From NCBI RefSeq assembly GCF_016756745.1, contig NZ_JAESIH010000055.1:62001-126000 (forward strand): DNA of 64,000 bases, given 5' to 3'. The translations under genes were made by a program, and so were the position numbers. The stretch is from Aminivibrio sp. GTDB taxonomy: Bacteria > Synergistota > Synergistia > Synergistales > Aminobacteriaceae. Below the pieces are notes generated by a model. The model did not search any database and had not been told where the DNA came from. It saw only the letters and a list, made by a program, of their open reading frames with translations. Shown here in pieces: positions 10,053-62,152 of the stretch (position 1 is the first letter of the stretch; every line of letters begins with the position of its first letter).

Positions 10053-10067
10053 TCAAGACGAAGGAAC

Positions 10068-10232
10068 CCTAAATCCGCAGGTTTTTCAGGCAGAGGGAAT
10101 GTCGCCGGGCACAGCGCCCGGGCCGAGAAACCGACACGGATGTCGGTTTCAGGTGCAGTTGTCAAGGACGACAATCTGCACCCCCCGCCCAAGCGAGCAC
10201 CGGTGACACTCCCCGCTGCCTGCGGATTTAGG
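10068..10232 (+). repeat. Short-form dispersed MITE-like repeat, copy R1 (165 bp)
   Basis: The ends are perfect 14-bp inverted repeats: CCTAAATCCGCAGG at the left and CCTGCGGATTTAGG at the right. Inside are two strong hairpins: GAAACCGACA / TGTCGGTTTC, and GGTGCAGTTGTC / GACAATCTGCACC. The flanking five bases are GGAAC and GAAAC, a one-mismatch direct duplication. It differs from copy R3 at about five positions. The right end supplies the stop codon of the neighbouring minus-strand gene. Confidence 0.9.
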
Positions 10233-10878
10233 GAAACGGCGGGAAGGAGACTTCCGGCGACGGCCCCACCCATTTCCTGGTTTCCTCGAACTCCATCTCG
10301 TACAGCAGGCGGCTGATTTCCAGGTCCACCGGGTTGTCGGTCTCGTAGGGAATGAAGAACCTCCTGTATCCGAACTTCTCGGCGAAGAAGGGCATGTTCG
10401 CCTGGGAGGACACGCTCTTTTCCAGGACGACGCCGAGCCTGTCCAGGAAGTCGTCCTCGCTGAAGAAAGGGTTGACGCTGACCAGGATAATGGCCTTGAA
10501 GCTCTCGAGAATGATGTCCCTGTCCCAGAGAGTACAGAAGGAGACTCCCCCTTCCACATCTCCATGGCCTTCGATGAGAGATCCGACCGCTTCCTCCATG
10601 GGGACGGAGTAGCCGAAGAGCATGGTGAAACCGAAATCTATCCGGCGCTGCTTCCCGGGGATGAACATACTGTCCCGGAGCAGGGTTCCGGCATAGCCGC
10701 TCTGAAGGCTCGTGAGGCAGAAGAATTCGCTGCTCAGGCACATGGACAGGGCGGCGATCCTGGAAAGGCGACCGCTGTGGTGGGAATTCACGGACACAGG
10801 CTCGTAATCCACCCCGAGAGGAAACCACGGGGCGATCTGCATGTCGACATTGGAGTCCCAGTAGGGAAGGGATGTCAT
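10228..10878 (-). CDS. Uncharacterised protein coupled to CheV
   Basis: I do not recognise this 216-aa soluble protein. It has no signal peptide or membrane segment. It is rich in aromatic and acidic residues and includes the segments VDYEPVSVNSHHSGRL, SMFIPGKQRRIDFGFTMLFGY and FFIPYETDNPVDLEI. Its ATG lies inside the last codons of cheV (4-nt overlap), so the two are co-translated and it may act in chemotaxis signalling. The last two residues and the TAA stop come from the terminal repeat of MITE copy R1. Removing that copy would let the frame run on for about nine codons (LRLDLAVD) to a TGA at 10037, so the native C-terminus was probably slightly longer. Confidence 0.75.
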   Translation of the reverse strand: MTSLPYWDSNVDMQIAPWFPLGVDYEPVSVNSHHSGRLSRIAALSMCLSSEFFCLTSLQSGYAGTLLRDSMFIPGKQRRIDFGFTMLFGYSVPMEEAVGSLIEGHGDVEGGVSFCTLWDRDIILESFKAIILVSVNPFFSEDDFLDRLGVVLEKSVSSQANMPFFAEKFGYRRFFIPYETDNPVDLEISRLLYEMEFEETRKWVGPSPEVSFPPFP

Positions 10879-15770: not shown

Positions 15771-15845
15771 TCAAAACCACCTCTTTCTCACTTCTCCGTT
15801 CAATGGTACCCTGCGGCCGGGAAAAAGAAAAGGACCACCCCGGGG

Positions 15846-16010
15846 CCTAAATCCGCAGGCAGCGGGGAGCGTCACCGGTGCTCGCTTGGGCGGGGGGTGC
15901 AGATTGTCGTCCTTGACAACTGCACCTGAAACCGACATCCGTGTCGGTTTCTCGGCCCGGGCGCTGTGCCCGGCGACACTCCCTCTGCCTGAAAAATTAG
16001 CGGATTTAGG
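15846..16010 (-). repeat. Short-form dispersed MITE-like repeat, copy R2 (165 bp)
   Basis: It is inverted relative to R1 and R3 but has the same length and internal hairpins. The inner edge of one terminal repeat differs (CCTAAATCCGCTAA instead of CCTAAATCCGCAGG). It is flanked by a perfect 5-bp direct duplication, CGGGG at 15841-15845 and at 16011-16015, as expected for insertion by transposition. It lies between the HAD gene and the 3' end of the LVIVD gene. Confidence 0.92.
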
Positions 16011-16054
16011 CGGGGGGCGGTCCGGAAAATTGACGGGGGGTTTCCCGGGAAGCC

Positions 16055-35905: not shown

Positions 35906-36140
35906 CCAAATCAACAGTTTTTCCAGGCAGAAGAAGTGTCGCCGGGCATGAGGCAAATTCGCCCTCCCCGGGGAGGCGCTGGAGCAGGGGAACCGACACG
36001 GATGTCGGTTTCACAGGCAGGCAACCGGCGAACGCAGGGAGCCGCGGGACGCGCCCGGGCAGTTGTCATGGACGACAACCCACTCTACCCGCACCCCAGG
36101 CGTTCCCCGGTGACGCGCCCCGCTGGGGTGCGGATTGAGG
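35906..36140 (+). repeat. Long-form dispersed repeat, copy R4 (235 bp, degenerate ends)
   Basis: It begins with a decayed terminal repeat, CCAAATCAACAGTTTTTCC, and ends GCGGATTGAGG. The core hairpin ACCGACACGGATGTCGGT and the CAGTTGTC...GACAAC hairpin of the short form are kept. Extra modules are present: a CCTCCCCGGGGAGG hairpin before the core and a GGCAACCGGCGAACGCAGGGAG segment after it. It abuts copy R3, which looks younger. Confidence 0.82.
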
Positions 36141-36144
36141 ATGC

Positions 36145-36309
36145 CCTAAATCCGCAGGTTTTTCAGGCAGAGGGAGTGTCGCCGGGCACAGCGCCCGGGC
36201 CGAGAAACCGACACGGATGTCGGTTTCAGGTGCAGTTGTCAAGGACGACAATCTGCACCGGCGGCCCAAGCGAGCACTGGTGACACTCCCCGCTGCCTGC
36301 GGATTTAGG
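36145..36309 (+). repeat. Short-form dispersed MITE-like repeat, copy R3 (165 bp)
   Basis: The 14-bp terminal inverted repeats are perfect and identical to those of R1. It is flanked by a perfect 5-bp direct duplication, GATGC at 36140-36144 and at 36310-36314. The left duplicate starts on the last base of copy R4, so R3 inserted at the edge of an older element. It differs from R1 at about five of 165 positions. Confidence 0.93.
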
Positions 36310-36343
36310 GATGCCCTCTTTGCCCGAATTCCCGCTCCCGGTC

Positions 36344-59361: not shown

Positions 59362-59626
59362 CCTAAATCCGCACCTCAGCGGGGAGCGACACCGGGGACC
59401 GCTTGGACGGGGGGTGCGGATTGTCGCCTTTGACAACTGCCAAGGCGAGTCCCGAGGCTCCCCGCGTTCGCCTGCTGCCTGCCTGAAAAACCGACATCCG
59501 TGTCGGTTTCTCTCCCCTCAGGGGATTCATCCGCAAAGAGCGCGGAGCGAAATGGTTTCGCCCCCGGGGAGGGCAAATCCTTATACCCGGCGGCACTCCC
59601 TCTGCCTGGAAATTAGCGGATTTAGG
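59362..59626 (-). repeat. Long-form dispersed repeat, copy R5 (265 bp)
   Basis: It is inverted relative to R4 and R6, with ends CCTAAATCCGC and GCGGATTTAGG. It keeps the core hairpin AAACCGACA / TGTCGGTTT. It has a longer module with CCCCTCAGGGG and a GCGAAATGGTTTCGC hairpin, and the GGCTCCCCGCGTTCGCC segment shared with R4 and R6. No clean target duplication is seen. Confidence 0.85.
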
Positions 59627-59737
59627 AACTGGAACTTCCGCTCTTACCCGTCCGGATCGCCGAATACCTTCCCCCGGGAGAATACGCGCTTTCCCTTAAA
59701 AAAGATCCCGGGAAGTCCGTGTTTCCCCTACAGTGGC

Positions 59738-61120
59738 CTATCGTTCCGGGAGACCGGTCTGCCTTCTTCCTGCAAGAAGACCGGCGAGAGCCGCCAGTCC
59801 CGAAAGAGCCAGCCCCGGCAGCAGGGGATCCGTGTCCTTGAAGAACGCCGCCCCGATAAAAACCCCCGCAAGGCCGCATGTTCCGGAAAGAAGGCTCCAG
59901 ACGGCCGGCAGCCTTCCGGGCAGAAAGACCGCAGCAATGAGAGGAATGATGATGCCCGCCCCCTTGATGCCCATGCCGAGGTAGGCCCACTGGAGGATCA
60001 TGCTTTTCCCCGCCGCGAGGGCGATCAGCCCGGCGGCGGTTACCGTTCCGAGGACGGTAATCCTGCTGGCGAAAAGAATTTTCGCGTCGTCGTAGGCCGC
60101 AGCCCGTTTCGTCTTCAGGTACATGTCCCGGGTGAGGTTAGTGGCCACGCCGAAGGTGATCCCCACCGACGTCCCCAGGACGGTGATCATGATGCCCGAC
60201 CACAGCAGCCCGGCGACGACGGGATGGAAGTAGGTCCGTATGAAGAAGGGAAGGGCTTGGGATGCTTCCACTGGCACACCGGAGTTCCGGAGAGCCAGGC
60301 CGATCCAGACGCCGAGAAGCCCCAAGGGAGGAGTGATCATGGAGGCCAGGAGGCACCCCTTCCGGGCGGTGGCGTCGGAAGAGGCTGCGTAGACCGCCTG
60401 GATGTAGATCTGGCCGCACAGGACACCGCAGAGCAGCGAGGTGAAGGCGCCAAGGTCCCTGGCCACGCCTCGGGCGAATAAGTTGAAGAAGGGGTCGGCG
60501 GGGAGAGACCGGACGAGCATCGAAGGGGTCTGTCCCGCGAGGAACGCGGCCCCGACGCAGAGGATCATGACCCCGTAGAGAAAGATGATCTTCGCCTTTC
60601 CCAGCCTGCTGAAACTCTTGATCCCTCCGCCGTAGGCAAAGGCCAGAATGAGCACCGCCATGAAAACGGCGGACACCCACGAGGGGAAGGGGAAGACCGA
60701 GCCCAGCAGCGCTGTCCCGGCAAGGAACTGGGCAATGAGGGCGATGAAGGATCCCAGGGCGGTGGTCACGGCGGAGAGAAACGCCGATCCCTGCCCGAAA
60801 TGGCGGCCGAGGAACTGGGGAAGGGTGATAAGCTCCGTTGCTCTCAGAGGCTTGACGAACCACAGCCCCATGATGAGACAGCCGATGCCGCCCCCCAGGG
60901 TGAACCACCAGGCGGACAGGCCGTAATGGTAGGCCATCTGCACAGTGCCGACGGTGGAAGAGCCTCCAACGAGGCTGCCGAGGATGATGCCGGAAACGCC
61001 TCCGGCAGTCGCTTTTCTGCCGGCTACAGAATACTCCGATGAAGAGCTCGCTTTTCCGGAGGACAAAATGCCGAAAAAGAAAAAAACAGCCAGAATGCCG
61101 AGGGCTGACGCGGCGAACAT
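59738..61120 (-). CDS. Sodium:solute symporter family protein
   Basis: A 460-aa transporter of the SSS family with about 13 helices. Landmarks are SEYSVAGRKATAGGVSGIILGSLVGGSSTVGT near the N-terminus, GFGQGSAFLSAV-type loops and GTVQMAYHYGLSAWWFTLGGGIG. It should couple Na+ entry to uptake of an organic solute. It lies 33 bp upstream-to-downstream of the class II aldolase on the same strand, so a shared sugar or sugar-acid pathway is possible. The substrate is not inferable. Confidence 0.88.
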   Translation of the reverse strand: MFAASALGILAVFFFFGILSSGKASSSSEYSVAGRKATAGGVSGIILGSLVGGSSTVGTVQMAYHYGLSAWWFTLGGGIGCLIMGLWFVKPLRATELITLPQFLGRHFGQGSAFLSAVTTALGSFIALIAQFLAGTALLGSVFPFPSWVSAVFMAVLILAFAYGGGIKSFSRLGKAKIIFLYGVMILCVGAAFLAGQTPSMLVRSLPADPFFNLFARGVARDLGAFTSLLCGVLCGQIYIQAVYAASSDATARKGCLLASMITPPLGLLGVWIGLALRNSGVPVEASQALPFFIRTYFHPVVAGLLWSGIMITVLGTSVGITFGVATNLTRDMYLKTKRAAAYDDAKILFASRITVLGTVTAAGLIALAAGKSMILQWAYLGMGIKGAGIIIPLIAAVFLPGRLPAVWSLLSGTCGLAGVFIGAAFFKDTDPLLPGLALSGLAALAGLLAGRRQTGLPER

Positions 61121-61153
61121 AAGAACACCTTCTTCAATTATTGTGCACGGCGG

Positions 61154-61792
61154 TCATTTCCGCCTGCCGTATACCTCTTCGATTTCCTTTATCCTGGCTT
61201 CCGACAGGGGCCGGGGCGATCCCATGGTGTGGGTGATCCAGGTCATTTTCGCGGCGGCCTCGAGGAGTTCCATCCTGTCGAAGGCCTGGAAGAGAGTTTC
61301 CCCTGCTGTAAGAGCGCCGTGGTTTTCCATGATCACCACGTTTCCCTTCCTGACCGCCTGCCCGACCACGCGGGCGAGTTCCTTCGTCCCCATAAGGGCG
61401 TAGACTGCCCTCACCGGCTTCCCCAGGACATGCCGGGTCTCGGCGGTGAGCCGGGTTTCGATGTCCCTGTCAAGGGCCGCAAAGGCGGAGGCCGTTACCG
61501 GGTGAGCATGGACGACTCCGTTCACGTCGGGGCGGTTCCGGTAGACTTCCAGGTGCATCTCCGTTTCGATGCTGAGCTTCAGCCCCGGAAGGAGATTTTC
61601 TCCGTCCGGAGTCACGGCCCCGATCTCGCCGGCGGTGATTTCCCCCTTGTCCGTTCCGGAGGGCGTTATGAGCACAACATCGCCGCACCGGAGGCTCACG
61701 TTGCCCCCGGAGCAGGTTGTCAGTCCCCGGCGGTACAGCCGCCTCATGACGGAGGCGACTTGCTCCCTTTCTGCTTCTCGGCCGATCACCAT
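61154..61792 (-). CDS. Class II aldolase/adducin family protein (fuculose-phosphate aldolase-like)
   Basis: A 212-aa enzyme with the class II aldolase layout: GLTTCSGGNVSLR phosphate loop, LITPSGTDKGEI, the acid in SIETEMHLEVYRNRPDV, the zinc histidines in GVVHAHPVTASAFA, and MENHGAL. It should cleave or form a ketose-1-phosphate. The ATG has AGGGAG 10 nt upstream; a TTG two codons earlier is an alternative. It is the first gene of a pair with the symporter. L-fuculose, L-rhamnulose or methylthioribulose phosphate are all possible substrates. Confidence 0.87.
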   Translation of the reverse strand: MVIGREAEREQVASVMRRLYRRGLTTCSGGNVSLRCGDVVLITPSGTDKGEITAGEIGAVTPDGENLLPGLKLSIETEMHLEVYRNRPDVNGVVHAHPVTASAFAALDRDIETRLTAETRHVLGKPVRAVYALMGTKELARVVGQAVRKGNVVIMENHGALTAGETLFQAFDRMELLEAAAKMTWITHTMGSPRPLSEARIKEIEEVYGRRK

Positions 61793-61869
61793 GAGCAATC
61801 ATCTCCCTGAACGATCATCGTACTGTATACTACCATAAAAAGAAGAGGGTCGGGAATCGTCCCGAAAAC

Positions 61870-62152
61870 CCTAAATCCGCTAATTTTTCAGGCAGAGGGA
61901 GTGTCGCCGGGCATACGATCTCTTCACCCTCTCCGGGGGCGAAGAGATCCCGCTCCGCGCTCTTTGCGGATGAATCCCCTGAGGGGAGGGCGCCTGAGGG
62001 GAGAGAAACCGACGCGGATGTCGCTTTCACAGGCAGGCAGCCGGCGAACGCAGGGAGCCGCGGGGCTCGCCCGGGCAGTTGTCAGGGACGACAATCCGCA
62101 CCCCTCCCCAAGGGGCCCCCGGTGACGCTCCCCGCTGGGGTGCGGATTCAGG
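61870..62152 (+). repeat. Long-form dispersed repeat, copy R6 (283 bp)
   Basis: It begins CCTAAATCCGCTAATTTTTC and ends GCGGATTCAGG, with one decayed terminal base. An inserted module carries the hairpins GATCTCTTC...GAAGAGATC and CCCCTGAGGGG. The core reads GAAACCGACGCGGATGTCGCTTTC. The GGCAGCCGGCGAACGCAGGGAGCC segment and CAGTTGTC/GACAA hairpin match R4 and R5. No target duplication is visible. Confidence 0.85.

Follow-up and report, generated by a model that had tools for sequence, protein, structure and literature searches.

The window, the whole stretch of 64,000 nucleotides analysed here (G000:C55:62001-126000), is part of a draft genome of 2.94 Mb in 100 contigs (G000), taken to belong to the family Synergistaceae. 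It contains three copies of a 165-bp repeat, termed R1, R2 and R3, each flanked by short duplications, as well as longer relatives of the repeat and a conserved gene that overlaps the end of R1. The features are as follows.

10063..10067: left target duplication of R1, GGAAC
10068..10232, plus strand: R1, 165-bp MITE copy; the site is empty in the sister species G001 and G002
10228..10878, minus strand: conserved gene of unknown function with its 3' end lost; last 8 residues missing relative to the sister species
10233..10237: right target duplication of R1, GAAAC by mutation
15841..15845: left target duplication of R2, CGGGG
15846..16010, minus strand: R2, 165-bp MITE copy in the opposite orientation to R1 and R3
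16011..16015: right target duplication of R2, CGGGG
about 35906..36140, plus strand: degenerate, longer and older relative, directly adjoining R3 upstream
36140..36144: left target duplication of R3, GATGC; the older adjoining element ends on the first G
36145..36309, plus strand: R3, 165-bp MITE copy with perfect 14-bp terminal inverted repeats
36310..36314: right target duplication of R3, GATGC
59362..59626, minus strand: long-form relative of about 265 bp
61870..62152, plus strand: long-form relative of 283 bp with an extra CTCCGCGCTCTTTGCGGA hairpin

The coordinates and lengths confirm a preliminary description of this DNA in that all three copies are exactly 165 bp long. The identity is 97% between R1 and R3 as well as between R2 and R1, but R2 and R3 are 95% identical, with about 8 differences instead of the five or so given there. 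The termini of R1 and R3 read CCTAAATCCGCAGG...CCTGCGGATTTAGG and form the perfect 14-bp inverted repeat that had been reported for two copies; one terminus of R2 reads TTAGCGGATTTAGG, and 11 bp match in its inverted repeat. The 5-bp flanks of the three copies also read as claimed. The inversion of R2, the degenerate relative adjoining R3 and the relatives at 59362-59626 and 61870-62152 had gone unmentioned.

A TATAAT-like promoter sequence is situated just downstream of R3. Genes for a sodium:solute symporter and a class II aldolase lie between the two inverted long-form elements (59362-62152), and no shared outer duplication was seen around this pair.

Genome-wide copies, target duplications and empty sites

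A search of G000 using R3 as the query returned 28 full-length 165-bp copies with 92-100% identity, and two copies besides R3 are 100% identical to it. The genome additionally holds many partial or longer relatives. An exact search of 2.9 million viral contigs with a 25-base stretch from the element gave no match. Copies were then compiled with their flanking 5-mers from G000 and from the two sister species used for comparison, G001 and G002 (a further sister species, G003, was used for comparison of the IS). Within the 165-bp class, 28 of 38 copies are flanked by a perfect 5-bp duplication, whereas none of the 38 has one in control flanks taken 6-10 and 11-15 bases out. In the longer class, 34/55 copies are perfect, and the control flanks next to them give none. 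Of the 95 elements taken together, 64 are perfectly duplicated at 5 bp, compared with no more than 8 at each of the other lengths between 2 and 10. The number of full-length copies in the genome and the absence of the duplications from the control flanks indicate that the repeats are not a product of chance.

The site of R1 is empty in G001 (contig C2) and G002 (contig C39), with both flanks aligning, and contains a single GGAAC (...GGAAC|GGCGG...). Because both empty sites read GGAAC, the GAAAC to the right of R1 arose by mutation after the duplication. R3 and its older upstream neighbour (about 35906-36140) are both missing in G001 and G002, and R2 is located at a synteny break in the sister species. 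Precise empty sites in relatives are therefore present for R1 and R3, next to a consistent flanking duplication. The preliminary description had held that a lack of both would favor a non-mobile structured element, and the outcome favors mobility.

The insertion of R1 has truncated the conserved gene at 10228..10878. The stop codon TAA of this gene is supplied by the MITE end CCTAA, and the encoded protein ends in SFPPFP*, where the sisters have SFPPFLTLDLA[A/V]D*.

Two further pairs of loci were observed in the sister comparison. The same MITE is present at G000:C9:2300-2900 (L042) and on contig C2 of G002 (L113), with 100% identity along flanks of 154 and 192 bp, unlike other regions of the two genomes, which are about 89-93% identical; contig C9 may be a contaminating contig or the result of a recent transfer. 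In G001 (L158) and G000 (L012), 165-bp copies with different duplications lie a few bases apart in the same intergenic region, and these neighboring insertions may reflect an insertion hot spot or chain insertion.

The proposed IS1380-family partner

The 165-bp element encodes no transposase, and it had been proposed that the mobilizing enzyme must lie elsewhere, with IS1380 or Tn3-like elements as candidates. An IS1380-family IS with the same 14-bp ends is indeed present in G000. The PF13701 gene of this genome is an ORF of 533 amino acids on contig C76, which scores 67.8 bits against PF13701 (cut-off 34.7) and 174.1 bits (E 3.6e-51) against the IS1380 transposase model NF033539, just under its curated cut-off of 180. 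The gene is contained in an intact IS of 1912 bp (L031:223-2134), with ends CCTAAATCCACACC.../...CCTGCGGATTTGGG and CGGTC on both sides. It thus combines an IS1380-type DDE transposase with bounding inverted repeats and a 5-bp duplication.

A second type of IS is present in multiple copies, inside which contigs C6, C7, C10, C11, C24, C35 and C45 begin or end; it is broken up by the assembly and known from these contig-end fragments. Its left end, CCTAAATCCGCACC, and its right end, CCTAAATCCGCAGG, are the two variants seen at the MITE ends, and each differs from the corresponding end of the C76 IS at one base in 14. The end of its gene, read in part as TVMKRLEMLQSMPD*, is similar to the transposase of C76. 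The check that had been suggested, a search for a transposase gene between terminal repeats like those of the MITE, thus found one in the C76 IS, and the multi-copy IS has ends identical to those of the MITE. A related IS in G003 has ends of this kind and is flanked by CAAAT on each side, and the end pair recurs in related ISs from other Synergistaceae. Relatives of the transposase occur in G079 and G016, two genomes of the family, and the same hits are carried by the records JALHFZ010000088.1 (Synergistaceae bacterium) and JAKJGK010000003.1 (Synergistetes bacterium). No relative of the C76 transposase was detected in the sister species G001, despite the many MITE copies there; the mobilizing enzyme of G001 may have been lost, may be unassembled or may be a different one.

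The partner resembles other IS1380-family members such as ISEcp1 in its DDE transposase (PF13701, NF033539) and its 5-bp target duplications. The right end of ISEcp1 is close to CCTAAATTCCACGT. Target duplications of 5 bp have been shown for ISEcp1 (PMC2887853). The MITE differs from these ISs in having no transposase, and local alignment with the ISs of G000 finds only 12-16 terminal bases in common at each end. With so little shared sequence, the MITE interior being IS-derived, or the MITE being a deletion derivative of the present ISs, was ruled out.

The 5-bp duplications, the precise empty sites in two sister species and the IS1380-family partner with the same ends together support the preliminary description of a non-autonomous transposon, and the MITE family is genuine and probably recently active. 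It is very likely that the 165-bp repeats are MITE copies moved in trans by an IS1380-family transposase with 5-bp target duplication, and, judging from ends and duplications, the IS1380-family transposase of G000 is almost certainly the mobilizer. The transposase, encoded elsewhere in G000, would recognize the terminal CCTAAATCCGCAGG/CACC repeats and move the MITE in trans, leaving the 5-bp target duplication behind. In the parts of the literature searched, no MITE tied to IS1380 was found.

An enzyme of another family with 5-bp duplications is a highly improbable mobilizer. The Tn3 family would be the example, since the Tn3-derived TIMEs are likewise reported to make 5-bp duplications (PMC4133298). 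TIMEs of about 260 bp also share with the MITE their non-autonomous nature, inverted repeats and a folded core, but those listed in that source have 38-bp Tn3-type inverted repeats, and they are usually present in a single copy per genome (PMC4133298). The MITE has ends of 14 bp, not of the Tn3 type, that match those of an IS1380-family IS of the same genome with the same duplication size, and it is present in dozens of copies. Of the two candidates proposed, IS1380 is the one with a likely partner in the genome, and the Tn3-like one does not fit the length of the ends.

A structured host element under selection, such as a regulatory RNA, a terminator or a protein-binding site, for which mobility would be secondary, was weighed against movement by an IS1380-family transposase. 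The predicted fold of the whole element is very strong (DNA z -9.6, RNA z -11.7; inner 75 nt RNA z -4.7), the central hairpins are nearly invariant across 33 copies of three species, and R3 is placed just upstream of the TATAAT-like sequence. A strong fold is as expected of a palindromic MITE. Covariation is weak in the 165-bp class (term -0.27, 3/56 pairs) and in the 256-bp class, where 4 compensatory pair types were found against 2.1 expected, a number reached by 16 of 200 shuffles; the latter run was made with orientation corrected, and alignment A3, with its misoriented row L139, was excluded from the conclusions. Rfam yielded no match better than chance for the MITE, whether at its gathering thresholds or at permissive ones, and the idea of a degenerate riboswitch within the long form was abandoned. 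Since the covariation is not clearly above that of shuffles, a conserved host RNA function is not supported. Copies that occupy different sites with fresh duplications, empty sites in the sisters and the truncation of a conserved gene by R1 also argue against selection for a host role, which we consider quite improbable.

Hairpin modules and chains of elements

The elements of G000, G001 and G002 fall into size classes of about 50, 165, 207-213, 256, 282 and 446 bp, so that the family spans 50-446 bp. Compared with the 256-bp form, the 165-bp form has two inner blocks missing and one stem replaced, and the 282-bp form has an additional nested hairpin. In the 446-bp element of G001 (L175:973-1418), which is flanked by TGACC on either side, the same ends enclose a 48-bp hairpin unit repeated seven times in tandem; this unit occurs in 0, 1 or 7 copies. 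At one orthologous site, with both flanks aligned, G002 has 166 bp and G000 has 280 bp, and the two elements start from the same base, preceded by TTGAT. At another, G001 has 211 bp and G000 has 256 bp at the same position and in the same orientation.

Because sister species carry different size classes at orthologous sites, the simplest account is that module content changes in place. The size classes could instead be independent MITE families that share only their ends. The 165-bp class is indeed no simple deletion of the 256-bp class, as it carries a GGTGCAG...CTGCACC stem in place of the GCTTGGGC...GCCCAAGC stem. All remaining modules are nevertheless common to the classes at high identity, and the orthologous sites hold different classes at the same base and in the same orientation, flanked by duplications that are identical or almost so, which makes independent families unlikely. 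The interior consists of hairpin modules: the unit of the 48-bp array, several palindromic hairpins and a 51-nt hairpin that is specific to the long form within the family. These modules are probably gained or lost at the insertion site, the likely route being slippage, deletion or gene conversion between copies.

The elements also lie in chains. Among the sampled loci, 13 pairs of ends face each other within 30 bp, and in 10 of these the separation is exactly 5 bp. In readable chains (e.g. L048, L176 and L180) the first element is flanked by a perfect duplication of its own, directly after which comes the second. Two ISs are also 5 bp from another end (L031, L049). Exact 5-bp separation with one target duplication reused was observed at L031:2135-2149, L048, L049, L176, L180, L209 and L026. 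A reversed control of the spacing carries no information, since GGATTTAGG and CCTAAATCC are unchanged on reversal, and the spacing evidence consists of the facing-end counts in the sampled loci. It seems that new insertions target the duplication next to an end that is already in place.

The 51-nt hairpin of the long-form MITE (L043:732-782) recurs outside the MITE in other genera (loci L241-L264), with a consensus like ATAAGCAGGCGACCGGCGAGCGAAGCGAGCCGTGTCGATCGCTTAGTTT, and is arranged in tandem in G016. A covariance model built from seven examples shows compensatory changes at 5 of 13 pairs and has matches in 28 of the 83 Synergistaceae genomes, which represent 14 of the 20 genera; these counts are rough, as the filters were strict and MITE copies are among the seven examples used for training. 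The hairpin matches no Rfam family. It is similar to REP/RAYT sequences in being a dispersed imperfect palindrome with bulges, found alone and in tandem in other genera. In contrast to these, no Y1 transposase (PF01797) is present in the hairpin carriers G000-G003, G016, G017 and G072, and a RAYT/Y1 origin is unsupported.

The make-up of the MITE is like that of the BOX elements of Streptococcus pneumoniae, which have fixed end modules and an inner boxB that is absent or tandemly repeated (PMC3049150). BOX elements vary in size at the same site between strains, fold strongly, have ends similar to those of a host IS, and cluster by inserting into one another (PMC3049150). The MITE shares the end modules around a variable tandem inner module, the same-site size variation, the strong fold, the IS-like ends and the clustering. 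It differs from BOX in a 14/14 match of its ends to the partner IS, in the IS1380 family of that partner, in being GC-rich, and in a long form whose hairpin is found in other genera outside the element as well. By analogy, the MITE would work like BOX; the likeness is one of make-up, and membership is not claimed.

A more specific reading, which we put forward tentatively, is that the family is a chassis of IS1380 ends around hairpin modules of separate origin, the 51-nt hairpin among them. These modules would be swapped in place by gene conversion, and a transposase preferring sites one 5-bp duplication away from an existing element end would build the chains of element, 5 bp and element.

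The element is of a familiar kind of genomic parasite and is unusual mainly in its exchangeable hairpin modules. The 51-nt hairpin, spread across the family, is itself a repeat that calls for an explanation. The pairs of different size at the same site make module change in modular MITEs such as BOX directly testable. A MITE family can be seen here together with its likely IS1380-family mobilizer, empty sites and in-place module changes, all in a single genus of a phylum that has received little study.
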